Made by a program: the position numbers and the translations under genes. From assembly GCA_947462815.1 (NCBI GenBank), contig CANHQR010000002.1, positions 1 through 64,000 of the forward strand: a stretch of DNA of 64,000 nucleotides. The letters run 5' to 3'. The notes under the pieces were generated by a model. The model ran no database searches, had not been told where the DNA came from, and saw only the letters and a list, made by a program, of their open reading frames with translations. This DNA is from Pseudobdellovibrionaceae bacterium (lineage in GTDB: Bacteria; Bdellovibrionota; Bdellovibrionia; Bdellovibrionales; JAMPXM01). This document shows positions 1,019 through 25,160 of the stretch, piece after piece (positions within the stretch are counted from its first letter, which is position 1; the number at the start of each line of letters is the position of its first letter).

Positions 1019-1047
1019 GCCTCACCTTACATCACGGAAGGTGCCGC

Positions 1048-1956: not shown

Positions 1957-2339
1957 TGATGCGGCTACTGACACAACAAGGTCAGATGATCGCTGAGCAC
2001 GTCGAAGTTGCTGAGACCATGCTGAGTCGCATGCAGGGTTTACTCGGGCGCCGCGAGCTTCCCGCGCGACACGCGTTGTGGATTCATCGATGCAATTCGA
2101 TTCACACTTTCTTTATGAAGTTTTCCATCGATGTACTGTTTGTCGATCGTGCTCTCGCTGTCGTGGGCATTCGACGAGATTTGCCCGCATGGCGTATCAC
2201 CTTTCCGATTCAAAATGCCGACAGCGTCTTTGAACTTCCCGCAGGAAGCCTCAGTGATGTGGTCAAGATCGGCGACCGTTTGCAACTCGTCGAATTGGGA
2301 TCCGTTGACTCTCAAGCGACTATTGCGGAGGAGATTTAA
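1956..2339 (+). CDS. DUF192 family protein
   Basis: MQGLLGRRELPARHALWIHRCNSIHTFFMKFSIDVLFVDRALAVVGI...VFELPAGSL is the DUF192 signature; overlaps the tadC stop. Confidence 0.85.
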   Translation: MMRLLTQQGQMIAEHVEVAETMLSRMQGLLGRRELPARHALWIHRCNSIHTFFMKFSIDVLFVDRALAVVGIRRDLPAWRITFPIQNADSVFELPAGSLSDVVKIGDRLQLVELGSVDSQATIAEEI

Positions 2340-4037: not shown

Positions 4038-4043
4038 GCCTAG

Positions 4044-5141: not shown

Positions 5142-5142
5142 G

Positions 5143-7997: not shown

Positions 7998-8887
7998 TTC
8001 GGAAACATGATCAACAATCTCGCATCCCAACTCCACCAACCCTGGTCACCGAGTTCACGGCACCTGCATCTCATCCTGCATTTGCTGGTGCTCTTGAAGT
8101 GAACTTATTCCGAAATGAGAAAGTCTGCGGAATGAATTGCCCGCATTGCAGTCTCGGCGAAACGACTCTTCGCCTCGCGCGCCTTAAACGTGAACTCATC
8201 CCGGTGAATTCCCAGGATGTGGTGAGCAAGGTGCGAGCCGAGTTGGTTCGCCGCGAACTCAATGGCGGACCTTGGCCTCGAATGCTGATTTCGGGTCGCG
8301 GGGAACCTACACTCGCTCCGGATTTTACAGACGCGATCAAGCAGATCATTCAGGCTCGTCATGAAATTGCCCCTGGAACAGAGGTCGAAGTCCTCACCAA
8401 CGGCGAACGACTGAGTGATCGCGACATACTGGAGGCTCTTCGCCAAGTGGATCGCGCGTGGTTGAAACTGGATGTGGGAACTGAGCTCGGCCTGAAGCGT
8501 TTCTCCAAGCCCTTGTCGCGAATCACCCTGGAGATCTTATTGGGCCATGCACGCAAGATCGATAAACTCGGTGTCGTAAGCACTTTCCTCGGCGGCGCTC
8601 GGGGCAACATTCACGAGTTTGATGAATGGCTTGAGAACGTGAGCCTCTTGTCACCCCAGCAGGTCATCATGACGAATGGACGCTTGCGAAATTCGGGGGA
8701 CATTTTGGACGCCAAGTTGGCGAGCACAGAGCCCGCAGAGCTTGTTGAGCTCACCGAGGACGAACTGTTCTCTTTAGCGCATCGCTTTGAGCGAAAACTG
8801 AAGCAAAAGCCCTTAGTCTCATTTGACGTTCGAAGCTTGAGCACTTCGGAGCCAACGACGTTCGAGCTGTATACGAAGGCTCGCTAA
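7994..8887 (+). CDS. Radical SAM domain protein
   Basis: CGMNCPHC (CxxxCxxC) preceded by EVNLFRNEKV, then MLISGRGEPTLAPDF. Confidence 0.78.
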   Translation: MIRKHDQQSRIPTPPTLVTEFTAPASHPAFAGALEVNLFRNEKVCGMNCPHCSLGETTLRLARLKRELIPVNSQDVVSKVRAELVRRELNGGPWPRMLISGRGEPTLAPDFTDAIKQIIQARHEIAPGTEVEVLTNGERLSDRDILEALRQVDRAWLKLDVGTELGLKRFSKPLSRITLEILLGHARKIDKLGVVSTFLGGARGNIHEFDEWLENVSLLSPQQVIMTNGRLRNSGDILDAKLASTEPAELVELTEDELFSLAHRFERKLKQKPLVSFDVRSLSTSEPTTFELYTKAR

Positions 8888-10879
8888 TTCCGGCTCACGC
8901 CAAAGCGCATCGATTTCTCCTAACTGGCCATGACGGATTCGCCCCCAACTGATGGGTGCCGCTTGTGCCAAACTGACATCCGCCACCCTCAGACCCAGGC
9001 GTCGCTCACCCTCTATGGTTTGAATTTGCTGGAGGGCGACTTCGCGTTCATTATCATCGATGCCATTGAGCCATTTCAGAACCCACTTGAAGATCTCGGG
9101 ACAACTCGCGTCCCACGGCATCCTTCGGCGAAATTGATCCAAGCAGACTTGAGGGCCGACAAAGCCCTGCCAGCCGCTCCACTGCAGCAGATACTGAAAT
9201 TGCGGCCAACTCTGCCTGAGTTCGTCCCACTCGTCTTGTGAAATGCGAGCGCGCTGAAGCGCTTCGGCTGTTCGCGAAGCCAATGAGTCAGGAAAAAACT
9301 GTTCCACTCTCCACCTGGCGGACCATCGAATCACAGCCTCCATGACGAGTTCATCACGAGTGACTTCCGGCACAGGCTGATAACCCCACATTGTCGCGAG
9401 CTCCGACAGGTCTTGAAACACTCTTCGATACTCGGCGGAGTTTCGAGGCAGAGGCTGACCTTCAAGAACGTCTGTTCGTGTTTCAAAAATCTTGGGACGC
9501 GTGTCATGGACGTAGAGATAGTACCCACGACGAATAGCAACTCGTGAACCAAAACTCACATCTTGATCGGGTCGAGCGGCCCGCAACCACCATGATCGCC
9601 AAGCGGATTCCGTCGCAATCGGTCGATCCATGACTGTTGCGGAGGCTGGTCGCGATGGGAGCCGATCCTTCGAACCTAAAGCTGATCGTAAAAGTGGAAT
9701 GAGAGATCGTGCTTCGTCAGATAAGCTTTCGTTCGATCGCTCTTTTTCGGACTGACCTTCGATCCATGCCTCCAAGGTGGGACCCAAATCCATCGTCGAG
9801 ATCGGCGACGACTCCAGAACGCTTTGTGGCACCCAGGCATGAGCAGGACGGCCCGGCTGAAGACGGGCCCGACTCTGCAGATGCTGCATCTCTTTTTCAG
9901 GTGGTTTAATCAGCAGCGCCACTTGTGAGCTTCGTCCAGAAACATCGTCTCTGGGCAATTGCCCTTCGATTTCAAGAAGCGGCCCCTGTAAGCCGACGAG
10001 AACTACTCTCGTTTGACTCCAAACCCCCTCATCATCCATCCAACGGAAAAGTCGCGCGAGCTGCTCGCTCAGCACATGAATTTGCTCTTCGCGTGTGCGA
10101 GCGCGCGCACGCCCAGCTTGGTCGTAGCTCTGATGCCAAGGAACTGCCGGATCGTGGAAGTAGAGTGTCAAAAAGAAGGGACGCCGCTGGCCCCAACCCG
10201 AACCCCCACCCGAGCCGGAAGTTGGCTTCCAACTTTTGGGTTCGTCCGACCATTCCTTGAGCCAGGCGACCGCTCGATCCACAATCACATCTGCAGACCG
10301 AACACTTCGCCACGGCTGCAATTCAATGGAATCATCAAAAACTTCGAAGCCTTGATTCAATCCCGTTCGTCGTAGAATCGGAGCACCACCCGAGATGAGA
10401 GCCGTCGCCCAGCCTCTCTCAAGAGCGCGCTCCGCCACAGTCTGCATTCGCGGAGACAGCCCGCCCTCCGGCCCACGTCCATGATGCCGATAGCCGGTGC
10501 GCCGCGGCGGCAAGCCGGTGAGAATCGAAGCGAGGGCCGGCCCAGAAAGCACCGAAGGCGTATAAGCGCGGGTGAACTGGACGGCCTCCCCACAGAGTCG
10601 CGCTACCGCCGACTCGCGAGCTTCGTTCTCCATGGCATCGAAGCGACACTCCAGATCTTGAGCGCCCAGCTGCTCAACAGCGATCAACAAAACTGAAGCG
10701 GGTCGCGAACTCGAACGCCAGAAGTCACAAGCGCTCGTGAACACGACCAACCCAAGCGCGAGAGCCACGCGCGCCCACCTCGAGGCTCGACGAACGCATA
10801 GAACTCGTCGCTTGCCGTCAATTCGTCGGCAAGGATGAATTTGCTTAAAATGGGGTCGCCAGCTCGTCTCGCAGCGCAT
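8819..10879 (-). CDS. Sulfatase/alkaline-phosphatase-superfamily-like exported protein (start uncertain)
   Basis: ALALGLVVFTSACDFWRSSSRPASVLLIAVEQLGAQDL...VQFTRAYTPSVLSGPALASILTGLPPRRTGYRHHG...RPFFLTLYFHDPAVPWHQSY resembles sulfatase family; N-terminal signal/lipobox-like TSAC. Track ORF extends to 11047 but overlaps the divergent gene; ATG at 10879 is the nearest in-frame alternative. Confidence 0.6.
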   Translation of the reverse strand: MRCETSWRPHFKQIHPCRRIDGKRRVLCVRRASRWARVALALGLVVFTSACDFWRSSSRPASVLLIAVEQLGAQDLECRFDAMENEARESAVARLCGEAVQFTRAYTPSVLSGPALASILTGLPPRRTGYRHHGRGPEGGLSPRMQTVAERALERGWATALISGGAPILRRTGLNQGFEVFDDSIELQPWRSVRSADVIVDRAVAWLKEWSDEPKSWKPTSGSGGGSGWGQRRPFFLTLYFHDPAVPWHQSYDQAGRARARTREEQIHVLSEQLARLFRWMDDEGVWSQTRVVLVGLQGPLLEIEGQLPRDDVSGRSSQVALLIKPPEKEMQHLQSRARLQPGRPAHAWVPQSVLESSPISTMDLGPTLEAWIEGQSEKERSNESLSDEARSLIPLLRSALGSKDRLPSRPASATVMDRPIATESAWRSWWLRAARPDQDVSFGSRVAIRRGYYLYVHDTRPKIFETRTDVLEGQPLPRNSAEYRRVFQDLSELATMWGYQPVPEVTRDELVMEAVIRWSARWRVEQFFPDSLASRTAEALQRARISQDEWDELRQSWPQFQYLLQWSGWQGFVGPQVCLDQFRRRMPWDASCPEIFKWVLKWLNGIDDNEREVALQQIQTIEGERRLGLRVADVSLAQAAPISWGRIRHGQLGEIDALWREPELASLRIQLERRWLRSAQASNVK

Positions 10880-10931
10880 GAGCTGGAATGTTACCTTGAC
10901 CCCCTCCGAGCCTCTAGAAATAATTTCCGCT

Positions 10932-11585
10932 ATGGCACTTACAGAAAAGCTCTTCCTCGTCGCACAACCCGCCGCAACTGCAATTCTATGGGGCCTTCTC
11001 GCGGTCAGCGTGATCAGCCTAGGACTCATCATTGAACGATGGATCACCTTGCGCGCTGTTGCTCAGCGCGGGTTCAAGAATCGTCAACGTATGCGCGAAG
11101 CCCTGCAAAGCTACAATCTGAGTGAGATTGAAGAGCTCGCACGGGACAAAGACTCGTTGGAAGGTCGAGCTTTGGCCTACGGACTTCGTCACGTCAAAGA
11201 GAGCGGCACCAAAGGCCTCGACCAGATCTTCAACTCGTTTGCCCTGCTGGAGCGCCCGCAGTTGGAACGCAGCCTCAACTTCTTAGCTACGGTCGGCTCG
11301 AATGCTCCTTTCGTTGGACTACTGGGAACGGTTCTCGGAATTATGAAAGCCTTTAAAGACCTTTCCGCCAATGCGTCAGCCGGCAACGAGGCGGTGATGG
11401 CGGGAATTTCCGAAGCGCTTGTGGCAACGGCCATCGGTCTTCTCGTCGCGATCCCCGCGGTGATTGCCTATAACGCGTTTCAACGCCAGGTGCGACAAGC
11501 TCTGCAAGGTATCGAGATCGTACGCGAGCTCTGCACGGCCTACGCCGCTACGGATCGTTCGACTTCACCTACAAAGAAAGCCTGA
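10932..11585 (+). CDS. MotA/TolQ/ExbB proton channel family protein
   Basis: ATG at 10932; LERSLNFLATVGSNAPFVGLLGTVLGIMKAFKDL...GISEALVATAIGLLVAIPAVIAYNAF. Confidence 0.88.
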   Translation: MALTEKLFLVAQPAATAILWGLLAVSVISLGLIIERWITLRAVAQRGFKNRQRMREALQSYNLSEIEELARDKDSLEGRALAYGLRHVKESGTKGLDQIFNSFALLERPQLERSLNFLATVGSNAPFVGLLGTVLGIMKAFKDLSANASAGNEAVMAGISEALVATAIGLLVAIPAVIAYNAFQRQVRQALQGIEIVRELCTAYAATDRSTSPTKKA

Positions 11586-11591
11586 GACAAT

Positions 11592-12038
11592 ATGGCGGGC
11601 GGAATTCAAAACAACGACGATGAACCGATTTCCGCGATCAACGTCGTCCCTTTGGTCGACATCATTTTGGTCGTTCTGATCATCTTCATGGTCACCGCAC
11701 CGCTGGTGCTGAAGCCCGTGATCGACATCAATCTGCCGAAGTCGGCGAGTGGCGAAGAGGCCCCTCCGGCTCCTCTCACTGTAGCGATCGGCAAAGACGG
11801 CAGTCTCGCCGTCAACGGCGAGGCCGCCACCACCGAGAGCCTTGCAGTCCGCGCGACGGCTCTTGTGCGCGAAAAGCCTGATACCGCGGCCATTCTCCAA
11901 GCCGACAAGTCGGTCACGCTGGAACTGCTCACAGCCGTGATTGACGTGATCAAAGCCTCTGGAATTAAAAAAGTAGCTTTCAGCACGGATAAGTCCGCCA
12001 CCACGACAGCACCCGTTGCACCGCCCGCGACTCGCTGA
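11592..12038 (+). CDS. ExbD/TolR family protein
   Basis: ISAINVVPLVDIILVVLIIFMVTAPL with TM aspartate; adjacent to ExbB. Confidence 0.88.
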   Translation: MAGGIQNNDDEPISAINVVPLVDIILVVLIIFMVTAPLVLKPVIDINLPKSASGEEAPPAPLTVAIGKDGSLAVNGEAATTESLAVRATALVREKPDTAAILQADKSVTLELLTAVIDVIKASGIKKVAFSTDKSATTTAPVAPPATR

Positions 12039-12056
12039 TTTTATCTACAAAATTTT

Positions 12057-13820
12057 CTAGTTGCCCGTCGGCGGCACACGACTTTGTGAGCCAACGCTAT
12101 AGCGTCGATAGAGCGCCGAGTTTAGATCCAAGCCCGAATCAGCCGACTTCACCTTTTGAAAGTGATAGCGCAATTCACCCGGAGCGTTCGGATCTTTCTC
12201 TGGCGCTTGCACGAAGTAGAAGAGCAGCGTGTTCTCTTCGGCATCGTGAACAAGATCCGCGCGTCCCATCGCACCTGCGAAGGTCAGCGGAAGCGTCTTA
12301 TACACGGAAATATTCGAGATCTGAAAATCGCCACAATGTTGACCTGTGTCGGTGTCAACGTAGGGACGCCAGAACCGCTGATAGGCCGCAGCCGCTTTCG
12401 GGCTACGCCAGTTTCGATACTCCAAGAAAATTTCGTCCAAACGATATCCATCAAAGAGATAAGCGCGATTTCCGTGATCCAAGCCGCCCGATTTGTTACG
12501 AGTCATAAAGAACTCAAAAGAATCGATGAAGCCATCCCCGTCCGCATCAAAGTTGAAGGGATCGGAGTCGACTCCCATCTTATCTGTCCAATTGCCAGTC
12601 GGACCCGCGGGAGTACCATTACGCATGAATCGTTCCTCGCAAAGATTCAACAGGTCATGGTCCTCATCTGTGGTGTCGATGCAGGAGTTATCCAGCATTT
12701 CGTTGAATACGATAAATCGATAGAAGAAAGCATCCGAGTAAACGGGATGGAAGGAATTACGCTTTTGGGGATCAAAGGTCTTTCCCAGCGTTCCAAGATT
12801 CATACGACCGCGTTTTGAGAGCTCCTTTTCGAACTCGGTGTTGTATCGAATCTCGTCCCGGTCACACAAACCATCCGAATCGGAGTCCACCCCCATTGCT
12901 CCATCATCACAAGGGGCTGCGTTCAAATTGGCGACAACGAACTCTTTGATTCGCCAAGGCTCCGAGGATGTCACGCCAATCAGTTCATCCAGAGGAATTC
13001 GCCCGTCCACATTGGTATCGAGAAATTTTCCTAAGCCGGTCATAGCCATGCTTCGCAGTCGATTCGCGGCTGTCGGGTTGTCGGGGCCATAATAGACCGT
13101 CGAGAAGGTGGAGCGAGCGACCGTAACTAGGTCGGCGATATCGCGGTAGATCGCGGTATCGTCAGGAGGGCTGCCGTAATCTGTGGGCTCACCATCGGTG
13201 ATCATCACGATCAAGTAGCTGGAGTTCTGGCCTGGATTGTCCATCATGTCTTTCACAATCGCCGACCGAGTCATTTGAATGGCGGTCTTGTACGGCGTCG
13301 CGCCGTTGTCGCCATCCGTTCGCAATCGATCAAGAGCCGCCTGAAACAGCGTTTGGTCGGGCGAAAATATCGCACTCTGATCTGACCCATCGTTGATGTA
13401 AGCCAAGGACTGGTTGCCATTGAAGGCCACAAATCCCCAAGACACGTTCGGGTTGTTCTTATGAATATCCCAGAACGCTCGGATCGTGTCGTGACGGTAA
13501 GTTTTTTGAGGATCCGTCGTGCCGTTCGAACCTGACTTATCAACTAAGAACATCACTTTGGTGTACGAGCTCTGCATGTCAGGCGGATCTGCACAGATTT
13601 TTCCAGCTGACGTTTTTTCCACGGCTTTTTCGATAATTTTGAGCCGGGCATTATCGCAATTCTGAAATGCACCAATCAAAACCGCGGCGGCCATGAGGAG
13701 CCCCGCAATCGCTCGCCCATCGACTTTGGGTTTGCCCGTGAGGCCAATCCATACGCCAAAGAAGGACCTCAGTCCTTCCCGGACGTTCCGAATTGAACCC
13801 AGTGACTTCTTCGATCCCAT
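12057..13820 (-). CDS. VWA-domain exported protein with Ca2+-binding-like loops
   Basis: MIDAS-like VMFLVDKSGSNG...; SYLIVMITDGEPTDYG; acidic loops DSDSDGLCDRDEI and DADGDGFIDSFEF. ATG at 13820 is preceded by GAGGGGG Shine-Dalgarno-like sequence (preferred to 13835). Confidence 0.75.
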   Translation of the reverse strand: MGSKKSLGSIRNVREGLRSFFGVWIGLTGKPKVDGRAIAGLLMAAAVLIGAFQNCDNARLKIIEKAVEKTSAGKICADPPDMQSSYTKVMFLVDKSGSNGTTDPQKTYRHDTIRAFWDIHKNNPNVSWGFVAFNGNQSLAYINDGSDQSAIFSPDQTLFQAALDRLRTDGDNGATPYKTAIQMTRSAIVKDMMDNPGQNSSYLIVMITDGEPTDYGSPPDDTAIYRDIADLVTVARSTFSTVYYGPDNPTAANRLRSMAMTGLGKFLDTNVDGRIPLDELIGVTSSEPWRIKEFVVANLNAAPCDDGAMGVDSDSDGLCDRDEIRYNTEFEKELSKRGRMNLGTLGKTFDPQKRNSFHPVYSDAFFYRFIVFNEMLDNSCIDTTDEDHDLLNLCEERFMRNGTPAGPTGNWTDKMGVDSDPFNFDADGDGFIDSFEFFMTRNKSGGLDHGNRAYLFDGYRLDEIFLEYRNWRSPKAAAAYQRFWRPYVDTDTGQHCGDFQISNISVYKTLPLTFAGAMGRADLVHDAEENTLLFYFVQAPEKDPNAPGELRYHFQKVKSADSGLDLNSALYRRYSVGSQSRVPPTGN

Positions 13821-13841
13821 GGATCGCCCCCTCAAGTCTTC

Positions 13842-13864
13842 GAGCGTCTCAAAATGAGGCGCTC
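13842..13864. promoter_or_regulatory. Inverted repeat GAGCGTCTC-aaaat-GAGGCGCTC in the leader of the VWA gene
   Basis: Read directly; 9-bp arms with one mismatch/wobble, about 21 bp upstream of ATG at 13820. Confidence 0.6.
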
Positions 13865-14210
13865 ACCCCACTCCCAAAATCTCAGTCTCTCGCGAATGCC
13901 TTACAAATCCCCCTGATGAGCCCCTAAAAAACCCATCTGGCCGACGCACTGATACTCAAGCCCTACTTAGGTTCTATTCAAGCGCGAGGCCATGCGACAG
14001 CCGCTCAAATCGAAAACAATTGTTTATCCCTTTCGCAATTGCTCACAACTTTGTCGGCACATGAGACAGTGTCTCACAAAAGAAATCGTCGATTCCACTG
14101 CTCCTGATCGCCGCCTCAAATTTCACAGTTGACCTGCCATCCGGCCTCTATTCTCTTCGACAAAATGCCGAAGAATCTGATGAGTTGCGATCACTTCGAC
14201 CGGTTTGTGT

Positions 14211-14233
14211 GAGCGTCTCGAACTGAGACGCTC
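14211..14233. promoter_or_regulatory. Inverted repeat GAGCGTCTC-gaact-GAGACGCTC in the leader of the 14272 gene
   Basis: Perfect 9-bp arms, 5-bp spacer, about 38 bp upstream of ATG at 14272; same left arm as 13842-13850. Confidence 0.6.
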
Positions 14234-14271
14234 TTTCCCCCATCAAGTGATATTCGGGGAAGTCTGATGAA

Positions 14272-14664
14272 ATGAGTGAGCATATGACTTTGGCGCATCA
14301 AAGACCCAAGCGACGAATGACTGACTGCTCGCTCAGTCCGATGGGCTTCGCATTTTCTTTTTGCATCGGAGCGATGATCGCACTTTTGCTGACCTTGACC
14401 GACAGCTCGACCGCCTCCGCACAGTCGCGAGTTGACCTTGAAGATCTCGATGTCAAAGGCGAGCTTCTGAACGACAATAGATTGCGAATGACAGCGCGCG
14501 ACTCGGTCGACGTCGGCGATCGTATTCACTATCGAAAAGATTTTCGTCCTGAGATCGTCGACGGTTTGGACTTGAGAATTCCGGCCTCTGAAACCGAGCA
14601 GTTGAAATCAAGCGGAAGATCTTCCGACGAATTTTCGAATTCCAGTCTTGAGGCCAAACCATGA
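14272..14664 (+). CDS. Small exported protein of unknown function
   Basis: Signal-peptide-like FAFSFCIGAMIALLLTLTDSSTASAQ; stop overlaps the ATG of the next gene. Confidence 0.6.
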   Translation: MSEHMTLAHQRPKRRMTDCSLSPMGFAFSFCIGAMIALLLTLTDSSTASAQSRVDLEDLDVKGELLNDNRLRMTARDSVDVGDRIHYRKDFRPEIVDGLDLRIPASETEQLKSSGRSSDEFSNSSLEAKP

Positions 14665-16787
14665 GAGGTGGCGGCGCAGCTCGGCCTCAGCATCCTCCGC
14701 CGCATCCTCCGGGGCATCCTCCGGGGCAACAACCTAACCAAGGTCCAGAGGTTCTCTCCGAGTCTGTCGAAATCGAGATAGTTCGCGACGGGCAAGCCTT
14801 GATGACACAGATCTTCACTCATTCGCCCATTCGCTTTGGTCGAATTCTCGACAATGACGTGGTCTTGCCCTTTGATTCGATTTCACGGAATCATTGCGAA
14901 CTCGTGTTTCGCGAAGGCGCATGGTGGTTGATCGACCTCAAGAGTCTCAACGGCGTCAAGGTCGGAGACGAACGTGTTCAGGCCTATCGCTTTGGCTCAG
15001 AAGGCACGTTCATTCTCAAGCCGCTTGAGATTCGTCTTCGTCGTGTGCAGCGGAACTTGAGTTCTGAAAATGTCACTCAATCCGGACTCCCCATTCTCGG
15101 CGACGATGATCTCACCCCTGTGCAAGAGGCACCGGCAAGCTCGCATCCGCCTCGAAACGCTCCCAATCCCATGCGTGCGGTTTCAACTCCTTCCGATGGG
15201 TCACCAAGGCCTATGCCCGAACATCAGCTGCCGGATCCAGAAAAATCGGCTAGAAAGTCTCTGGTCAACATCGACTCTTTGATGCTGCTCTCGCGCACCC
15301 ATCCTCTCATCGACAAATCCAAGCATCGAGCCCTTCAGGTTGTCGTTTTCTGGCACGACATCATGATTGCGAGCACCGAGTTTCTTCCGGACGAAGAAAT
15401 CGAGGTTTATCTGTCTGATTCGCAAGACGTGCCCATCCGTTTTGGACAGGTGGGAGATCAGCAAGCGGATCTCAAAATGCCGCGAGGCTTTGAGCTCGCC
15501 GCACGAAATGCCCAGTCGCTCAAGCTCACTCACTTTTCGCACATATTGGCCAATGGGCCTTCGAACCTGAGTGTGCTGTTCCGATTTGTTCCGACCTCCC
15601 GAGTGCACCGAGAAGGCGTCATTCCCATCATCGAAGATGCATTGATCGATCCGCTCGTGCTCTCCGGTGCGATTCATGGCTCGATTGCGATCGCGAGCTT
15701 TACGATGGTTCAAACACCTCGCGCAGATCTGACGAAAGAACCGGTACGTCTTGCTAAGATCGTGCAAGCCACTCCTCCACCGGCCTCCGCCGCTCCCACA
15801 CCCGTTCCGACACCCACACCCTTCGTGGCCGAGGCCACGCCGATTCCGACACCAATACCCACTCCGCTTCAGTCTCAAGCTACACCCCGACCTCAGCCGA
15901 CGCCACTTCGCGTGACGCAGGCGACGCCGCCGCCGAGGCCCACAACCCGCAAAGAACTTCCCAAACGTCAAGAACCGCCTCGGGTGGCGAAGCGAGTGGA
16001 TGAAGTCAAGGCCGAGCCCGCTCCTCAAAGCGAAAAACCAAATCTCACAGCTGCGAAACCTGCCAAGGAGAATCCACCACCTGCCGGTCCAAAATCGGAA
16101 CAACCCGTGACTCAGGTGAATCAGCAAGCTGTCGACGCCAAGCCCTTTGAGGCGACAAGTGTCGGCGCTCTGAAAACACTGTCTCTTCTGTCGTCAGGTG
16201 CGCCTCCGACGACAGGTGCTTCAACAATCGTGGTACGCAAGGGTCCACAACCCAGTGGCCCGCTCGGCGGAGGAGGCGGAGGCTCAGGCGGAGGTGGCAC
16301 AACAGCCATCATGAATAATCTTCCGGCCACGAAGGGCGGCGATCCAAGTGGCGCTGAAGGCGGTATGGCCTTAGCCGTCTCATCGGGTGGCGCCGGCTAT
16401 GGCACCAAGGGATACACAGGCAAAGCGGGTACGCGTGGCATCAAGGGCTCAGTGATCGGCGGAGCGACTTTCACGAACATTTCAAAACAAGAAGGTCTGA
16501 CACGAGAACAGGTCATGAAGGTCGTGCAGAAACATCACGCGCAGATTCAACAATGCTACGAGCGAAGTCTCTTGGATGACCCCGCACTCGCGGGTCGTGC
16601 GGAATTTGAATGGGGGATCAATCCACAAGGTAGCGTAGAAGGTGTTTCCGTAAAGGAGTCAACTCTTCGCAACGGTGAGAAGCTCCTCAACTGTGTCAAA
16701 GGCGTATTCAGGCGAATGAAATTCCCGGCGGCGACCAACGGTGCCTCGACAACCCCGACCATAGGCTTGCCCTTCGGTCGTCTCTAA
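14661..16787 (+). CDS. FHA domain protein with proline-rich linker and AgmX/PglI-type (TonB-like) C-terminus; GltG-like candidate
   Basis: FHA: IRFGRILDNDVVLPFDSISRNHCELVFREGAWWLIDLKSLNGVKVGD; Pro/Thr-rich linker; C-term EQVMKVVQKHHAQIQQCYERSLLDDPALAGRAEFEWGINPQGSVEGVSVKESTLRNGEKLLNCVKGVFRRMKFPAA. Confidence 0.78.
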   Translation: MRGGGAARPQHPPPHPPGHPPGQQPNQGPEVLSESVEIEIVRDGQALMTQIFTHSPIRFGRILDNDVVLPFDSISRNHCELVFREGAWWLIDLKSLNGVKVGDERVQAYRFGSEGTFILKPLEIRLRRVQRNLSSENVTQSGLPILGDDDLTPVQEAPASSHPPRNAPNPMRAVSTPSDGSPRPMPEHQLPDPEKSARKSLVNIDSLMLLSRTHPLIDKSKHRALQVVVFWHDIMIASTEFLPDEEIEVYLSDSQDVPIRFGQVGDQQADLKMPRGFELAARNAQSLKLTHFSHILANGPSNLSVLFRFVPTSRVHREGVIPIIEDALIDPLVLSGAIHGSIAIASFTMVQTPRADLTKEPVRLAKIVQATPPPASAAPTPVPTPTPFVAEATPIPTPIPTPLQSQATPRPQPTPLRVTQATPPPRPTTRKELPKRQEPPRVAKRVDEVKAEPAPQSEKPNLTAAKPAKENPPPAGPKSEQPVTQVNQQAVDAKPFEATSVGALKTLSLLSSGAPPTTGASTIVVRKGPQPSGPLGGGGGGSGGGGTTAIMNNLPATKGGDPSGAEGGMALAVSSGGAGYGTKGYTGKAGTRGIKGSVIGGATFTNISKQEGLTREQVMKVVQKHHAQIQQCYERSLLDDPALAGRAEFEWGINPQGSVEGVSVKESTLRNGEKLLNCVKGVFRRMKFPAATNGASTTPTIGLPFGRL
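14690..14728 (+). repeat. Short in-frame tandem repeat GCATCCTCCGSS encoding HPPPHPPGHPPG
   Basis: Three consecutive copies gcatcctccgcc / gcatcctccggg / gcatcctccggg. Confidence 0.85.
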
Positions 16788-16912
16788 ATTCACAAGTGAA
16801 TCGCCTGCTCTCGTCTGTAATACTGGGCCGTGAGTCCGGCAAAACTCGAGTTTGATGATTTCAATGATCACAAATCGAAAGCTTGAACTCGCTGTGAAGA
16901 CAGGAGCCCAAC

Positions 16913-17557
16913 ATGGTACTTCAGCAGTTCTTCCTCAACTTCAAGAACGATATCTTCATGTGGCCGATTTTTATCACTAGCCTCTTTGGCCTCGCTCTTG
17001 TCGTTGAACGTGTTCGCTACCTTCGTCAGGCCTCTTCCGTTCAAAAAGAAGAGTTTCTCAATCAATTGAATCAGCTCGTTCTACAAGGCAATCTCGAACG
17101 ATGCATCGCTCTCTGTAATCAAAACCAAACACCTCTCACAAAAATCGTTCGCGCTGGTCTGATGGCGATCGCTTCAAGAAAGTCCGTCGACGAGGTCCAA
17201 ACAGCTATGGATGCCGTCGCACTTCGCGAAATACCTAAAATTGAAAAGCGCACCAGTATGCTGGCGATGCTATCCAACATGGCCACACTTCTGGGACTGC
17301 TTGGAACTATCTTCGGTATGATCGGCGCCTTCGCCGCAGTCGCTAACGTAGCCGCCAGCGAAAAGGCCGCTCGTCTTGCCGCCGAAATCGCCAAGGCCAT
17401 GAATTGTACGGCGTTTGGTCTACTCGTTGCCATTCCTCTTCTCGGCGCTTACGGCTGGCTCCAAAGTAAGGGAACAGAGCTCATCGACGACGTTCATGAA
17501 GCGGCCGTCGCGACTCTCAACTTCATCATTTCTAACCGAGACAAATTCGCGCGCTGA
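16913..17557 (+). CDS. MotA/TolQ/ExbB proton channel family protein (AglR-like candidate)
   Basis: MLAMLSNMATLLGLLGTIFGMIGAFAAV...IAKAMNCTAFGLLVAIPLLGAYGWL. Confidence 0.87.
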   Translation: MVLQQFFLNFKNDIFMWPIFITSLFGLALVVERVRYLRQASSVQKEEFLNQLNQLVLQGNLERCIALCNQNQTPLTKIVRAGLMAIASRKSVDEVQTAMDAVALREIPKIEKRTSMLAMLSNMATLLGLLGTIFGMIGAFAAVANVAASEKAARLAAEIAKAMNCTAFGLLVAIPLLGAYGWLQSKGTELIDDVHEAAVATLNFIISNRDKFAR

Positions 17558-17566
17558 GGAGTTCAT

Positions 17567-18043
17567 GTGGGCGGAGGTTCAGTTCCAGGCGGAGGAGGAA
17601 AGTCCGCCAACTTTGAACTCAACTTGGTTCCATTTATCGATCTATTTTCGACGCTGATCTGCTTTTTGCTCATCACTGCAGCCTGGAATAATCTCGAGGC
17701 CGTTAATGCCGGAGCCCCTCCCAAGTCCGTGGATCAACGAGACCAAAACGACGTTCCCCCAGAACCGCCTCCCGACAAACCCAAGGTGACCTTGTCTGTA
17801 ACGCTACATCCCGATCGTCTTGAGGTTGCTGAGGACAATGAGACTCGCCCGCTTCCCCATCGCGCGGGTAACCCCGACTATGCTGGGCTCACGGAGACGT
17901 TGCGCAACTGGCGGGCGAAGTATCCGAATCGACAAGATGTCGTGCTCGCCTCCGACAATCGAGCACCCTACAAGCATCTCGTGAAGCTGATGGATGTGTT
18001 CATTGACGAAAAGTTTCCCGAGGTCAGCATCACGCTGAACTGA
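17567..18043 (+). CDS. ExbD/TolR family protein (AglQ/AglS-like candidate)
   Basis: GTG start; FELNLVPFIDLFSTLICFLLITAAW with TM Asp. Confidence 0.82.
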   Translation: MGGGSVPGGGGKSANFELNLVPFIDLFSTLICFLLITAAWNNLEAVNAGAPPKSVDQRDQNDVPPEPPPDKPKVTLSVTLHPDRLEVAEDNETRPLPHRAGNPDYAGLTETLRNWRAKYPNRQDVVLASDNRAPYKHLVKLMDVFIDEKFPEVSITLN

Positions 18044-18086
18044 TCTCGGGGACTTACGGAACGCACTTCGAAGAAGGAATGTCACA

Positions 18087-18632
18087 ATGAGCGGTGGCAC
18101 AGAAAAGCGAATCATTAAGCCTGGCTACCATATTCGACCAAAATATGACCTCCACGGATTTCGGGAACGTCAATCAGGCGATCACAAAGGTCACATTGCC
18201 GGCGAGCTACCCCTCACGCCGATGATCGACATGTTCTCGGTCTTGGTGATCTTCTTGCTCATGAACTTCTCTTCGACCGGCGAAATATTCTACATGTCAA
18301 AGGCAGGAATCACATTGCCCGAGGCCGCCACGTCAGCCCAGCTCGCGAGCGCGCCTCTGATTTCCTTCGTTAAGGGCGTCTACTACTTAGATGCGCAAAC
18401 GCCCTCGGGAAAATTGATCAGCTTCGAAGACCGGAGCGAGAATCTCCGGGACATTGTGCAACAGCTCGAAGCCTTGAAGAAAGAGATGCAGGCTGCTGGA
18501 ACTAAAGCATTCAAGGGACAACTGAACTTCCAAGCCGACGAGAACACGCCTTTGCTGTTCGTCAAACGTGGCATGGGCGCAGCGACAAGCGCAGGTTTTT
18601 CGGCGATCAACTTCGTCGTTAAAGCCGATTAG
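18087..18632 (+). CDS. ExbD/TolR family protein, second copy
   Basis: GELPLTPMIDMFSVLVIFLLMNFSSTGEIFYM. Confidence 0.82.
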   Translation: MSGGTEKRIIKPGYHIRPKYDLHGFRERQSGDHKGHIAGELPLTPMIDMFSVLVIFLLMNFSSTGEIFYMSKAGITLPEAATSAQLASAPLISFVKGVYYLDAQTPSGKLISFEDRSENLRDIVQQLEALKKEMQAAGTKAFKGQLNFQADENTPLLFVKRGMGAATSAGFSAINFVVKAD

Positions 18633-21600
18633 CGCCTCAGGGTCGCCAAGAACTTAGGGCGCGGCAACTTGGACTTGCGCGAAGCGAGCTGCTGGAGCCG
18701 AGATTTAAAACCAAACTCCTGATAGACCTGGGCCAAGTTCCAAACGGCAGTCGCCTCATTGGCATTCGCTTTCAAGGCGCGTTTCAACCATTCTGTTCCG
18801 CCATCGAGATCGTTCAAGTAAAGGCGGGCGACTCCGATCCCCGCCATCGCTCGAGCATGACCCTCTTGAATCTCGAGAATGCGTGTCCAAACGGCGATCG
18901 CAAACCAATACTGAGAATCGGCCATGTAGGCCTCAGCGAGTGCATGAAGGGTATTCAGATCACGCGGCCGATCGTAGAGCTGAGTCCGTAGCGTTCGTGC
19001 GGAGGCTGGTGCTCGAAATTTCGGGGGGCCACTTTGGATCAAGTCGGACTCTTCGCGAACCACTGTTTGTCCTTCAGCTCGACATCCCTGGACGTAGCGA
19101 GTGAAGATCTCAAACTTCTCAGCTGTGTCGAGACATTGCTTAAAGACTTGTTTGGCAGCGACTTTATATTGATTTCCCTGCTTGTTCAGTTCACCTCGAT
19201 AGGCTTCAAGTTCAGCGGGCTTCAAACCTTGCGGAAGGGGCGAACTGGCGATGAAGCGACCCAACTCAAAGTTCGCTTGCCCAAGTAAGTACAGCGATGC
19301 AATGGTCCATCGACCAGCACCCAACTTGACGATCTCGTTAAGCTCTTTGGCGAGCTCCTGAAAAGCCTTCACCTTCGCAACTAAACCTGCTTGATCCTGA
19401 GCGTCGCGCATTTGAATGCCGCGAAAGGCTTCCAAAGATCTCTGTGCGATGAGGAAGCGAGAGTGCGCCGCGATTTCCGGCGTGGAGCTCTTCGCCGTTG
19501 CCTGAAACGTGATCAGTGCATCGGCTTGCTGACCTTGGCGCCATTGCGCGAGCGCTTTCAAGTAAGCACCTCGATCACCGGACATCGGACCCGCACTCGA
19601 CTCGAGGCTTCGCCAATCACCGGCCAATAGATCCACACGAATCACCGCTTCTCGATCACCCATGGCGGCGTAGAACTTGCGTGAGTTTTTGAAGTCACCC
19701 AACCACTCGCTGATTTGAGCAGAACTCTTACGCCACTCCTTTGATTCTTTCTCCTTCGGATACTTCTCGGCGTAGCGACCCAAGTAGCGGGCCGCACGCT
19801 CGAAATCTGCTGTCATCAATGCGGTTTGAGCCATGGAGCTCACAGCTTCCTTTGCATAAGTCGAGTCGCTAAACTTTTCGATGAGACCTTCGCCGACATC
19901 AAACATTTCGGGATCCCGTTTTGAACGAAGTGAAACAAAGGCTTCAAAGAATGCAGCTGCTCCCATCGATGAATCTTTGTACTTTGCCGCCAAGTTCACG
20001 AGGTTTTCGGCATAAGACTTCGATCCAAACTCACCGGCTGCTGTCTGAATTTCTTTGAGTTGAGCTCGGCGCGCGGCTTCTCGAATCGCTTGTCGATCCG
20101 CATCTTTCAAGCCCGGCGTGCGTTCGAGCTGTTGAGCCGCTTGCGCAAGACCTAGGAGATCATCCAACTGCGAGTAGCTATTGATGACCAGAAAGATCGC
20201 ATCTCTCACTCGCTCATCTTGCGGAAATTTAGAGATGAAGAAACGAAATGATTTAATCGCCGCTTCAAGATTTCGATCTTCGTACCAACTCTGCGCGATA
20301 TTATAGGCGGTTGTTGCGGCGGCGGGATGTCGCATTTTGCTTTTCAGCCAAACTTGCCCCACCTGGCGAATTCCTTGCCGAGCCCGAAGCCGATCAAGCA
20401 CCGACAACTGTTCGGCATCCTTCAATGCGTTGACGTAGGCCTCGACCGCCGACTCGCGAAACTCCGCTGCCGAAGAACCTTTCGGGGGGTTACTTGCGAG
20501 AAGCTCGTAATCCATGCCGGCCCGAGTCCACAGTCCGGCCTTAAACAAACTCTCCGCACGGTTCACCAACATCTTGGCCAACTCGCGATTTTGGGGAAAA
20601 CCGATTTGGTAAAGCTCATAACACTTAACAGCCAATTCGTAGTCCGCCTTGGTCTTGGTGCTACGCGCTTGAGAGTGAAGCCGCGTGGACACATCACGAG
20701 CCAGAAGTTCCAAGAATTTGAGTTGATTGAGCTCTTTGCGCCCAAGTTTGCGGTCCTCGCGCCGCGATTTGGATCGAAGACCTTGAGCCGTGAGCACCAC
20801 ATGGCGTACCAAATCAACTCGGTCTTCACCACTGGTGAGACGACCCTTCCCGACAGTCGGCGCCATAGATTTTTTAAAGGCATCATTCCAACGTTCAGCC
20901 GCCTCAAACTTTACTTCGGGATCCGTACTCGCTTTGAGGACCTCCAACCAAATGTCCGAGGCCTCGCCCCACAGCTCCTTCAGCGACAAGCGTCTCCCCA
21001 CGCGCGACAACACACGCCGATACGTGAGGTGGGAGTCGGAGATTTTCCGAAAGTAATCGACGGGGTGTTCGACAACTTTAACTTGAGCCGTGGTTCTGTC
21101 AGCCCCTTCTTTAAGGCTGGCCCGATAATCTCCATAAACTTCGACATAGGGAACGGCCATCGACAACACGGCTTCGCGACGGATATCTGTCTTTCGATAG
21201 CTCGCGGGTAACAAGTCGCGAGACACTAAGCCTTGCGTGCGCATCGCCTCTTCAAACGCTCGTACTGCTTCCGCATATTTCTGGTTGTTGATATGAACCC
21301 AACCGATCCGGTAGTGCGCCAGCGGCGTAAAGGGAGAAAGGTCTTTTGAGGTCACTCGTTGAAACGATTCGAGCGAGCCCTCCAGATCTTTCTTTTCCTC
21401 CAAGAAGTAGTCACCGACAATGATATTGGCTTCGCGAACATGGATGGAGTTGGGGAACTCTTGATTCAACTGTCCAAAGGTCTTCAGCATCGCTTCAGCC
21501 TGACCCAAATCTCTTTGCTCCAGGGCTTTGAAGAAGAGAGCTCGGTCGCGCAGCTGCGACTTCGGAAAAAAAGCATAAACCTTCTGATAAATCTCGATGG

Positions 21601-22018
21601 CCTCAAGCTTGGGTCGCTTCTCGGCGGTAAAATCCAACTCCGCAATCGGAGTGTTCTTATTTTGACCCACTTTGATCAAATACATCATTCGGGCCCGCTG
21701 CAAATGCAGGTCCGCGAGGGACATATACAGCTCGGGCAGGAACTCCACATCCTTGATGCGTTTGATCTCCGATTCCGTCACCGACAACCTTGAGGTCACT
21801 TGACGCAACTGATCTTCCAAGGCCTGGGTATCGGCGCTCCCCGCGCTGCTGGCACTCGCCTCAATCTGCCCAGGTCGTCGGGTCAGCACGGGGGCTGACT
21901 CTTCGTCATCGAGCGTCTCTTCAGCTAAAACTTGCGAGAAACTGAGACTCATCAACGTGATCACAGTGATCACAATTCGCCAGAAAAACTGAAGCGGTGC
22001 GAGATCACTCGGCAACAT
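18629..22018 (-). CDS. Large periplasmic TPR-repeat protein
   Basis: Signal FFWRIVITVITLMSLSFSQVLAEE; many TPR-like units, e.g. AHYRIGWVHINNQKYAEAVRAFEEAM and AYNIAQSWYEDRNLEAAIKSFRFFISKFPQ. ATG at 22018 is a more natural start than 22081. Confidence 0.75.
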   Translation of the reverse strand: MLPSDLAPLQFFWRIVITVITLMSLSFSQVLAEETLDDEESAPVLTRRPGQIEASASSAGSADTQALEDQLRQVTSRLSVTESEIKRIKDVEFLPELYMSLADLHLQRARMMYLIKVGQNKNTPIAELDFTAEKRPKLEAIEIYQKVYAFFPKSQLRDRALFFKALEQRDLGQAEAMLKTFGQLNQEFPNSIHVREANIIVGDYFLEEKKDLEGSLESFQRVTSKDLSPFTPLAHYRIGWVHINNQKYAEAVRAFEEAMRTQGLVSRDLLPASYRKTDIRREAVLSMAVPYVEVYGDYRASLKEGADRTTAQVKVVEHPVDYFRKISDSHLTYRRVLSRVGRRLSLKELWGEASDIWLEVLKASTDPEVKFEAAERWNDAFKKSMAPTVGKGRLTSGEDRVDLVRHVVLTAQGLRSKSRREDRKLGRKELNQLKFLELLARDVSTRLHSQARSTKTKADYELAVKCYELYQIGFPQNRELAKMLVNRAESLFKAGLWTRAGMDYELLASNPPKGSSAAEFRESAVEAYVNALKDAEQLSVLDRLRARQGIRQVGQVWLKSKMRHPAAATTAYNIAQSWYEDRNLEAAIKSFRFFISKFPQDERVRDAIFLVINSYSQLDDLLGLAQAAQQLERTPGLKDADRQAIREAARRAQLKEIQTAAGEFGSKSYAENLVNLAAKYKDSSMGAAAFFEAFVSLRSKRDPEMFDVGEGLIEKFSDSTYAKEAVSSMAQTALMTADFERAARYLGRYAEKYPKEKESKEWRKSSAQISEWLGDFKNSRKFYAAMGDREAVIRVDLLAGDWRSLESSAGPMSGDRGAYLKALAQWRQGQQADALITFQATAKSSTPEIAAHSRFLIAQRSLEAFRGIQMRDAQDQAGLVAKVKAFQELAKELNEIVKLGAGRWTIASLYLLGQANFELGRFIASSPLPQGLKPAELEAYRGELNKQGNQYKVAAKQVFKQCLDTAEKFEIFTRYVQGCRAEGQTVVREESDLIQSGPPKFRAPASARTLRTQLYDRPRDLNTLHALAEAYMADSQYWFAIAVWTRILEIQEGHARAMAGIGVARLYLNDLDGGTEWLKRALKANANEATAVWNLAQVYQEFGFKSRLQQLASRKSKLPRPKFLATLRR

Positions 22019-23561
22019 CTTCGACTCCCTCGTCACCACTCTCTTGGACGTCCACAGGTAGAGGCTCAGCACAACGACCACGCAAAAGAACTTGATAGTC
22101 TTCCAGCTCGTCCCACCATGCCTCAGACGTGATCGGCCAGAATAGACGCTCGAATCGGGTCTTGGATTTCACCGGCGGCATGTAATCAGCGCCAAAGGTT
22201 AAGTCCGTTCGCAGGGGCCGAATCGAGGCTTCATACTCGAGGTAGGTGACTTGGTTTCTAAAATTGAGCAAGCGATTTGCGACGCGCTCTGCCTCGAGGG
22301 GTATCTGGAGCGAAAGATCGCCCTCGAGACGCCGTTCTCTTTCAAGACTCTCATAGAACATTTTCTCCAAAATCTGATCGGCGAATTTAAATGCGAATTT
22401 TCGCGAGTCTTGCAGATCTCGCCGCTCGACTCGATAGTGATGAATCAACATCGCGCGCTTTTGCAGAAGTCGAGCCTGTAACGCCAACTGTTTGAGGTCG
22501 GCATTGAGATCGAGAGGCCGGCGCGACTCAATATGCTGAAAGACAGCGCCATACTCGCGACGAAAATCTTGCGCCGATTCTTTCACCAAATCATAGCGGC
22601 AGAGGTCGCGCTGAATCACCATCTTCAAGAGATCCGCCTCGGGCGACTTCAGTAAGCCATAGAAGGGGGATCGCAACACTTCGAGGACTCCGAGCGCCCG
22701 ACCATAATCGCGCATGTAGTACCGAATCCAAGCGATCTCGAGAAGCACACGGGCTCGCTCGCGCGTCGGCAAATCCAGCTTGCGAACTGTCTCTAAAACA
22801 GCGGATAGTTCACCACGCTCAAAGAGAAGCCTCGCCCGATTCAGTTCGGCAAAGCGTCGCGTAGGCTCACGCAGAACTCCCCTGCGCAGAATTTCTTGCA
22901 ACAAGGCTTCGCTTTCTTCCGCTCGTCCGTCCGCCAAACGTTCGGTCGAACGCTCAAATATTCGATCGGCATGCCAAACTGAATCGGTATGAACATTCTG
23001 GAATTCACGATTGGCCCATTCCTGATAGCCTCGCCGCATGAGCGCGCGGCCGCGGAACCATGCCAGCATGGATCTTTCATGAACAGGGTCGACCAAACCA
23101 TCAAACTCGTAGGCAAAGGCCTCAAGCGCATCCTCGTCAATTTCGTAGCTCTGGGCGATTCGATGCAATTCAGTCAAAGCCCATAAGCCCTGGGAAGTTC
23201 CGACACTTCGCTCGGCGACCGCCAAGAGGATGAGACCTGCGGTGAGGGGCTTGTCGACTTGAACCAACCCGATCGCAGCGGCAATTTCTAGCTCATCCTT
23301 AAGCGCACTCGACTCTTCCACATCCGGGGCGCTCATCGCAAAAGCCTCCTCGGGCTTTTGCTTCAGGAGATCCAGGTAACTCTTGAACCAAGTCTTGGGC
23401 AAAAAAATGGGACTGCGATCGGCAAGCCGAACTTCAAGCTTCGGCAGTGCGATCTCCACCGTCTGAGAACGTGTTGGCACGAGGACAAGAGTGATCAAGC
23501 TCATGCCGAGCGCGGCCCGCGCGACCTTCGACCTAGCCCACTGAGTCCGTCTTTGCATCAC
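22005..23561 (-). CDS. TPR-like exported protein
   Basis: ALGMSLITLVLVPTRSQTVEIALP signal-like N-term; helical repeats (AWFRGRALMRRGYQEWANREFQNV; VLLEIAWIRYYMRDYGRALGVLEVL). Confidence 0.68.
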   Translation of the reverse strand: MMQRRTQWARSKVARAALGMSLITLVLVPTRSQTVEIALPKLEVRLADRSPIFLPKTWFKSYLDLLKQKPEEAFAMSAPDVEESSALKDELEIAAAIGLVQVDKPLTAGLILLAVAERSVGTSQGLWALTELHRIAQSYEIDEDALEAFAYEFDGLVDPVHERSMLAWFRGRALMRRGYQEWANREFQNVHTDSVWHADRIFERSTERLADGRAEESEALLQEILRRGVLREPTRRFAELNRARLLFERGELSAVLETVRKLDLPTRERARVLLEIAWIRYYMRDYGRALGVLEVLRSPFYGLLKSPEADLLKMVIQRDLCRYDLVKESAQDFRREYGAVFQHIESRRPLDLNADLKQLALQARLLQKRAMLIHHYRVERRDLQDSRKFAFKFADQILEKMFYESLERERRLEGDLSLQIPLEAERVANRLLNFRNQVTYLEYEASIRPLRTDLTFGADYMPPVKSKTRFERLFWPITSEAWWDELEDYQVLLRGRCAEPLPVDVQESGDEGVEDVAE

Positions 23562-24352
23562 TCAACCTCTTCAGCCGCCGATCGGCCTCCGCCAAAAAGA
23601 TCAAACTGAAGTTCGAATCCGATTCCCAAATCCGTCATCAAGGTGACGCCCAAGTTCAGATCCTTGAAAATGTACTCACGCAAATACCAACGAAAAGCAG
23701 ACTTCGGCGAAAGATAGAGACGACCTTGAATTCCAAGCGCCAGCATTGGCGTGTGCCCAACTCGGTTGAGAACTAAACTTCCGACGCCGGCATAGAGAGA
23801 GGTTTCACTGAAGACCAACGTGCGATTGAACAGTAAGCTTTTGGAATACAGGGGTGTGTAAACCAAACCCGATGAGATGATATTCTTAGGGTAGTCCAAA
23901 ACCCCACCGAAGCCGATGTTTTCAACGGCCACATTCAAGGCCAAGAAGTCGTTTTTCAATTTGGTTTCTTGATTGAAGTTGTAAGCAAAATGCACCACTT
24001 CCCAACCGAGATAGGGCTTGAAGTAATAGGTGTAGGCTAAAGAGATCGGAAAGCCCCGATTGAAAGAGTCTGTGGGTATGTGCCCGACATTCAGCGCAAG
24101 ACTTTGATCGATGACATTTTCGCGGCCTTGAATCGCGACCGCTTGTGGGAGATCGAAAACATCTTGATCGTTTGGGCTCGCCGCTCCGGCAGGCGCGTCG
24201 AACCCAAGCATACACAGCAGCATGAGTGAGAGCCAAAGCGACCCGGTTCCACAAGTGACCCGGCTGAACGTTGGCTGCAAATTTTGATGCCGTTGTTCTG
24301 AAAAATTCCCCTGCTCACGAGATGCCGTATTCGACCCACACATAGGCTTCAT
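23558..24352 (-). CDS. Outer-membrane beta-barrel protein
   Basis: Signal-like LWLSLMLLCMLGFDAPAGAA; alternating beta pattern (ISLAYTYYFKPYLGWEVVHFAYNF...LALGIQGRLYLSPKSAFRWYLREYIF...VTLMTDLGIGFELQFDLF). Start revised to ATG at 24352. Confidence 0.65.
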   Translation of the reverse strand: MKPMCGSNTASREQGNFSEQRHQNLQPTFSRVTCGTGSLWLSLMLLCMLGFDAPAGAASPNDQDVFDLPQAVAIQGRENVIDQSLALNVGHIPTDSFNRGFPISLAYTYYFKPYLGWEVVHFAYNFNQETKLKNDFLALNVAVENIGFGGVLDYPKNIISSGLVYTPLYSKSLLFNRTLVFSETSLYAGVGSLVLNRVGHTPMLALGIQGRLYLSPKSAFRWYLREYIFKDLNLGVTLMTDLGIGFELQFDLFGGGRSAAEEVE

Positions 24353-24455
24353 TGTGACTGATTTTTGCGCCGTATTTGAATGGCAACACGACACACGCGA
24401 CGGAAGTCGAGGCGAAACCATCGAAGAGGATGAGCGGCGCGATTGCGATGAGCGA

Positions 24456-25160
24456 CTAGCTTTCAAAAACTCGGCGCAACTCGTACTCCAAGCGATCGCG
24501 AACCAAATCTCTTCGCAACTCACCGACCACTGACGGCGCAATGCGAGGCTGTTGCGCAAGGGCCTGTTGTTGAAGGACCTGATGTTGAAGGACTTCTTGC
24601 ATTGAAGTCGCCGTGCCGGGCGCAAAACCACATGGCTTTAAACCGACGAAAGCCCGGGGATCATCTTCAACATTCAAGGCTAAGCCGTGGTAGCTCACCC
24701 ATTTTCGAACCGCGACACCTATCGACGCGAGCTTTCGTGATCCTACCCAAACGCCAGTGGCCTCAACCGCATCATCGGCTCCGTCCTCGACCTGAGGACT
24801 ACGGCCCGTGGCCGACGAAATCCCAAAGTGCTGAACCGTGGCGAGCAGAGCTTGCTCCATTCTGCGGAAATGCAGGTGAAGATCGCGGCCGCGCGAATTC
24901 AAATCTAAAATCGGATACACCACAATTTGCGACGGACCATGATAGGTGGCTCGTCCGCCGCGCGAAACTTCCAGAACATCGCCCGACCAACCAAACACGT
25001 CACCGGGCTTAGTTCCACGGCCGAGAGTCACGATCGGTGGATGTGAGCAAAAAACCAGCGTCTCGTGAGCCTGTTCCCGAGCGACACGATCCACCAAGTC
25101 TTCTTGTCTCGTAAGGGCCTCGCGGTAATCGACGAGGCCCCAGTCGACGACATTAAGCAT
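24456..25160 (-). CDS. lipB: Lipoyl(octanoyl) transferase
   Basis: DYREALTRQEDLVDRVA...ETLVFCSHPPIVTLGRGTK...RGGRATYHGPSQIVVYPILDL...GVWVGSRKLASIGVAVRKWVSYHGLALNV. Confidence 0.92.
   Translation of the reverse strand: MLNVVDWGLVDYREALTRQEDLVDRVAREQAHETLVFCSHPPIVTLGRGTKPGDVFGWSGDVLEVSRGGRATYHGPSQIVVYPILDLNSRGRDLHLHFRRMEQALLATVQHFGISSATGRSPQVEDGADDAVEATGVWVGSRKLASIGVAVRKWVSYHGLALNVEDDPRAFVGLKPCGFAPGTATSMQEVLQHQVLQQQALAQQPRIAPSVVGELRRDLVRDRLEYELRRVFES

Follow-up and report, generated by a model that had tools for sequence, protein, structure and literature searches.

The published roles that we found for relatives of the Agl-Glt machinery, which are widespread in predatory and environmental bacteria, are gliding, spore-coat assembly and prey attachment. 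In Myxococcus xanthus the machinery consists of the AglRQS motor, GltA-K and CglB, and its motility-free relative Nfs, which borrows AglRQS, rotates around the spore with it during coat assembly (PMC3858216). Two further Myxococcus clusters, G4 and G5, were without a known function in 2011, when a polar mutation in the G5 homologue of gltD, MXAN_1327, was found to leave motility unaffected (PMC3169522). In Bdellovibrio, the best candidate for the gliding cluster is Bd0828-0838 (PMC3169522), and AglS Bd0838 is required for prey attachment (PMC6561027). TonB and TolA, for their part, engage their motors via a transmembrane (TM) motif with a conserved serine and histidine (PMC12204202).

Here, we analyse a gene cluster from Pseudobdellovibrionaceae bacterium (assembly GCA_947462815.1) lying in the first 64,000 nucleotides of contig CANHQR010000002.1, a stretch hereafter called the window. 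An initial annotation, made from the sequence alone, had proposed it to be an Agl-Glt-like gliding or energised envelope machine with a split, convergent organisation. On balance, we read the cluster as a trans-envelope machine of the Agl-Glt/Nfs class, powered by protons, that acts on a calcium-dependent VWA adhesin, and thus serves energised adhesion rather than being the main gliding engine.

Homology to Agl and Glt proteins

All the genes named by the initial annotation are present, as confirmed by Pfam and NCBIfam matches, and its family-level proposal holds. Indeed, judged by sequence, the cluster belongs to the Agl-Glt/Nfs class, broadly defined, because it carries homologues of GltG, GltC, GltF and the outer-membrane protein (OMP) family, its motor falls with AglRQS in the tree, and the Tol and Exb cut-offs are not reached. 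The transducer gene (14661-16787, + strand) encodes a GltG-like protein with an FHA domain (E 3.5e-16), a TM helix, a proline-rich stretch and a TonB-like AgmX/PglI C-terminus (NCBIfam NF033768, 76 bits for a cut-off of 40). The GltG equivalog model NF033760 gave 78 bits (E 4e-22), short of its cut-off of 650. Likewise, the putative periplasmic TPR protein encoded at 22005-23561 (- strand), for which Pfam gave no match, scored 48 bits (E 7.8e-13) of the 450 required by the GltC equivalog model NF033756; we take it as a homologue of GltC and not as its equivalent. The predicted GltA/B-like beta-barrel (23558-24631, - strand; its translation probably starts downstream of 24456, for instance at 24352 or 24223) reached 53 bits (E 3.6e-14) with OMP_myx_plus (TIGR04565), below the cut-off of 60. 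Both the GltC model and OMP_myx_plus were matched by 12 of the 12 members of the respective orthologue alignments.

The small exported protein (14272-14664, + strand; true start perhaps 14341) is a GltF/CglF homologue sitting directly upstream of GltG, the same position as in GltF-type loci. Its single window sequence gave no match to the NCBIfam GltF/CglF model NF033764, and a profile of nine orthologues matched GltF-type proteins with a hhalign E-value of 3.7e-7 and a probability of 93%. The large TPR protein (18629-22081, - strand), recognised by Pfam TPR families and taken here as GltD-like and periplasmic, had been called giant. With 1150 residues it is of the size of M. xanthus GltD (1191 residues) and not of the GltI giant (4132 residues; PMC3169522), and a GltI identity is excluded by this size. 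GltE and a second barrel are absent from the cluster, and none of GltE, H, I, J and K was recognised in it.

The motor follows the AglRQS logic of one TolQ-like and two TolR-like proteins, as had been proposed: an AglR-like subunit of the TolQ/ExbB/MotA family (16913-17557; PF01618, E 5.5e-26) precedes two ExbD/TolR-family subunits, AglQ-like (17567-18043; PF02472, E 1.8e-15) and AglS-like (18087-18632; PF02472, E 1.7e-12), all on the + strand, with the channel aspartates lying in PFID and PMID, respectively. None of the three reached the NCBIfam equivalog cut-offs for TolQ, ExbB, TolR or ExbD (79 bits of the 221 required for tolQ; 27 and 15 of 127 for tolR), and no TonB-dependent receptor, TolA, TolB or Pal was recognised within the cluster. 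Ordinary Tol-Pal or TonB homologues devoid of Glt similarity, which the initial annotation had named as the result that would count against it, are therefore not what the cluster contains.

Phylogenetic position and the gliding question

We label the window's cluster type V. The labels I to IV were set by gene order; types II and III are partly mixed in the trees, unlike V, I and IV, which are clean. The myxobacterial sample consisted of four genomes, with Myxococcus represented by Myxococcus sp. CA023, not DK1622, whose MglA is 100% identical to that of M. xanthus. The motor taken as Myxococcus AglRQS (M1) was picked by its grouping with type I, after Luciano et al., and not by locus tag. One record in our set, L080 (BNCN01000011.1), is titled Comamonas sp. 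KCTC 72670 and encodes an MglA with 99% identity to the Myxococcus protein; it looks mislabelled or contaminated.

In the concatenated AglR-Q-S tree (46 rows), type V forms a single clade (support 100/100), which joins type I and the myxobacterial motor set taken as AglRQS (93/89). In the trees of GltD and GltC, type V is sister to one Myxococcus/Hyalangium cluster, with Shimodaira-Hasegawa-like approximate likelihood ratio test (SH-aLRT) supports of 100 and 96, respectively. Type I and Nfs fall elsewhere in both, as does Myxococcus GltD in the GltD tree, the GltC tree containing no gliding GltC. Moreover, the window GltD aligns with GltD of the Myxococcus sister cluster over 1060 residues (28% identity, E 3e-90), as against only short local matches with those of Nfs, Glt and its own type I. 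Which cluster is this sister? It adjoins HmuY, HemS and hemin transport genes, and the M. xanthus hemin genes are MXAN_1316-1321, with hemS as MXAN_1318. Since a gene count from there leads to about MXAN_1327, we infer that it is G5. The two clusters share the set GltF-GltG-OMP-GltC-GltD, and with this naming type V is a distinct paralogous type, the transducer part of which is orthologous to G5.

In the genome of the window (3.4 Mb in 107 contigs), motors that combine one ExbB with two ExbD occur four times, on C2 (the window's contig), C58, C25 and C26, and there are three further simple ExbB/ExbD pairs. The best full-length GltG match, covering the FHA part and the C-terminus, lies on C58 and the best GltC match on C62, neither of them in the window. 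C58 (L055) and C62 (L202) each terminate within a GltD gene, and together they look like one type I, gliding-like cluster split there by the assembly. The type I order is OMP-OMP-C-D-E-F-G-R-Q-S, and in a relative this cluster scores 210 bits for GltC, 241 for GltG, 44 for CglF and 101 and 111 for OMP_myx_plus. In one genome type I lies on a contig of 3.8 Mb, at about 795-807 kb, a location compatible with Bd0828-0838, to which it would then correspond. Among 60 relatives, type V was not found in the genus that we take to be Bdellovibrio (g20). The genome of the window also encodes an MglA homologue (C1:138691-139272). Given the better Glt matches on C58 and C62, and the grouping of GltD and GltC with a cluster, G5, in which a polar mutant still glides, the gliding part of the initial annotation finds no support here. 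The pairing of the cluster with a probable surface lipoprotein that is adhesin-like and calcium-binding makes energised attachment a likelier task for it than gliding.

The residues expected of a proton-driven motor are largely retained in type V. The channel aspartate of AglS and the conserved TM threonine pair of AglR are found in 17 of 17 rows, the window included, and the AglQ aspartate in 11 of 17, again including the window. In the other six (L048-L053) the AglQ position is glycine with the AglS aspartate retained, so that in these loci proton coupling may have been lost from one axle protein of the two.

In the TM motif of TonB and TolA, serine and histidine are spaced as S-xxx-H. The TM helix of the window GltG, LVLSGAIHGSIAIASF, has this motif, as do 15 of the 17 type V GltG proteins; it is absent from all seven type I proteins and from Myxococcus GltG, NfsG and the G5 GltG. 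We considered it as a signature unique to type V and rejected this, because it also occurs in Sorangium GltG, in Hyalangium, Myxococcus and Anaeromyxobacter paralogues and in one type II protein; it is rather a retained or regained feature.

The VWA protein and the gene neighbourhood

Beside the GltF-like gene, on the - strand, lies the gene of a predicted VWA lipoprotein (12057-13835, true start perhaps 13820; Pfam VWA_2, E 1e-8, 36 bits for a cut-off of 27). In its signal-like stretch, GAFQNC in the window, the cysteine is invariant in eight homologues; lipidation is only likely, because FQNC is not a classical lipobox. Also invariant in these eight are the residues of the metal-ion-dependent adhesion site (D99, S101, S103, T180 and D214, DKSGS...T...D) and the aspartates of two DxDxDG calcium-loop motifs. 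Matches to TSP3_bac/EF-hand were weak, and a PDB search with the VWA profile returned a single weak EF-hand match. A single-sequence AlphaFold model had a mean predicted local distance difference test score of 33 and was not usable. A weak match to MtsD (E 1.2e-4), for which we found no publication, probably stems from the calcium-repeat motifs and is not taken as homology. The FQNC sequence recurs in neighbouring exported proteins of one relative: there, a run of exported proteins beside the type V cluster (L048, 3020-8884) includes two with FQNC and two with calcium-loop repeats, possibly several surface partners.

In several families, either the VWA and GltF-like genes adjoin AglS as a pair or the VWA gene is next to the barrel gene, with varying orientation. 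A VWA gene was found in or beside the cluster at 10 of the 14 informative type V loci and at none of the 20 loci of a second batch, 18 of which hold other cluster types (Fisher p 8e-6). Furthermore, when type V was scored by an FHA protein above 80 bits and a strong VWA match by more than 220 bits, 17 of 60 related genomes had the two together, 4 had type V and 1 the VWA match alone, and 38 had neither (Fisher p 2.5e-10), both p-values being inflated by the kinship of the genomes, which was not corrected for. Among 192 genomes drawn from the phylum, VWA matches at E <= 1e-40 were confined to the same order. As the VWA gene lies beside type V in several families and beside no other type sampled, and co-occurs with type V, we count it as a probable component of the system rather than a mere neighbour.

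This differs from the second ExbB/ExbD pair, which the initial annotation had placed alongside together with the VWA gene. Both are present, and we judge the pair (ExbB/MotA at 10878-11585, Pfam E 3e-34; ExbD at 11592-12038, E 2e-28; + strand) to be a neighbour: it is about 72-77% identical within the window's own family, adjoins the cluster only there, and was discarded as a machine part for this reason. A sulfatase-superfamily protein (8819-11047) is kept beside the pair within this family (33-37% identity). Further upstream (955-7254), three genes of FHA-domain proteins come after a T2SSF (TadC-like) gene, which suggests a Tad-type pilus or secretion locus, and the downstream flank carries lipoate and 2-oxoacid dehydrogenase genes.

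Start sites are uncertain for several genes of the locus. The AglS and GltD frames share four bases, stop to stop (18629-18632), so that the two halves are convergent, as initially described. This organisation is not a property of the system. Outside the window's family the order is OMP-GltC-GltD-GltG-AglR-Q-S, mostly on one strand, and in each of the five further family members that we examined the C-D-barrel block is inverted, within the extent of their contigs. The tail-to-tail layout is therefore a local, family-specific rearrangement.

Proposed mechanism and comparison with known systems

We propose that the AglR-like ring and the AglQ/AglS axle admit protons, as their families and channel residues suggest, and that the motor would move the GltG TM helix through its TonB/TolA-like S-xxx-H. 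The periplasmic arm of GltG, the TPR proteins GltC and GltD, and GltF would pass the force to the barrel, as in Glt, and it would act on the adhesin-like VWA lipoprotein as the CglB-like part, resulting in energised adhesion to a surface, a prey or a neighbour. The presence of the parts and their association are observed; the chain from motor to GltG, TPR proteins and GltF, barrel and VWA protein is drawn by analogy with Glt and CglB, and both the surface exposure of the VWA protein and its contact with the machine would follow from it. The narrower version, in which a dedicated proton-driven machine pulls on a calcium-dependent VWA adhesin at the surface, or moves it, and is not a gliding engine, we put forward only tentatively. 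Several points weigh against energised adhesion. Four type V genomes have no strong VWA match (two of these have weaker adjacent homologues), in one genome (G018) the VWA gene lies about 40 kb from the cluster, the VWA protein matches no Cgl model in NCBIfam, and S-xxx-H is shared with some other GltG paralogues, e.g. Sorangium GltG and one type II protein. Moreover, the Myxococcus G5 orthologue may do something else, because it has no adjoining motor and no VWA homologue was found in its genome.

How do other explanations fare? The cluster could be a gliding engine in which AglRQS drives Glt along the cell, with the VWA lipoprotein as a substrate adhesin analogous to Myxococcus CglB (PMC13104615). 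Every part is of the Agl-Glt class, the motor clusters with AglRQS and type I, and the MglA homologue has 59% identity to that of M. xanthus. However, this remains unlikely in view of the stronger Glt match on C58 and C62, the grouping with G5, the missing GltE, the single barrel, and the failure to find type V in the presumed Bdellovibrio genus, where Bd0828-0838 is the candidate for gliding (PMC3169522). The example of Nfs raises another reading, in which a polysaccharide or a component of the coat is carried round the cell by the motor, with the VWA protein binding or anchoring this polymer. However, we recognised no polysaccharide genes next to the cluster, the trees set it apart from Nfs, and the VWA domain and calcium loops suggest adhesion, so that we consider such a role rather improbable. 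The S-xxx-H motif and TonB-like C-terminus of GltG, together with the adjoining ExbB/ExbD pair, would fit TonB/Tol-like energised uptake or envelope maintenance with Glt-like parts; against this very unlikely explanation stand scores below the Tol and Exb cut-offs, the lack of TonB-dependent receptor, TolA, TolB or Pal genes recognised in the cluster, and a barrel of the OMP_myx_plus kind.

Energised adhesion, if true, would add motor-powered attachment to the jobs of the Agl-Glt/Nfs class, next to gliding and the assembly of the spore coat, and would offer a clue to what Myxococcus G5 does. The cluster links one Agl-Glt branch to a motor of its own and to one particular putative surface protein that has features of an adhesin, and an AglRQS-plus-Glt locus should not automatically be taken for a gliding engine.

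Like the M. xanthus Agl-Glt machinery, the cluster combines one AglR with two AglQ/S and includes GltC, D, F and G homologues, one of A/B and a putative VWA lipoprotein that we liken to CglB by analogy; it differs in lacking recognised GltE, H, I, J and K, in its single barrel, in its S-xxx-H, in scores below the GltG and GltC equivalog cut-offs and in its place in the GltD tree. Myxococcus G5 likewise has a GltF-like protein, GltG, one barrel, GltC and GltD, the last two sister to type V, but its gene order is another, its GltG is devoid of S-xxx-H, it includes extra lipoprotein-like genes and a TPR protein, and, as said, no motor adjoins it and its genome yielded no VWA homologue. The type I clusters of the same order, probably Bd0828-0838, share the motor group and many kinds of genes and occur in the window's own genome, but they have two barrels, GltE and no VWA gene, and form their own clade in all trees. 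Nfs is also Glt-like and motor-driven, with a non-motility role, but its GltD and GltC belong to another clade, it has no motor of its own as the window cluster does, and no VWA gene was found beside it. Finally, in motor-linked VWA force transducers (PMC12204202) a VWA protein is likewise linked to one TolQ-like protein, two TolR-like proteins and a TPR gene. There, the VWA protein itself bears the TM helix and the motor-binding motif, whereas in the window GltG would be the transducer, with the VWA protein apparently a lipoprotein distinct from it.

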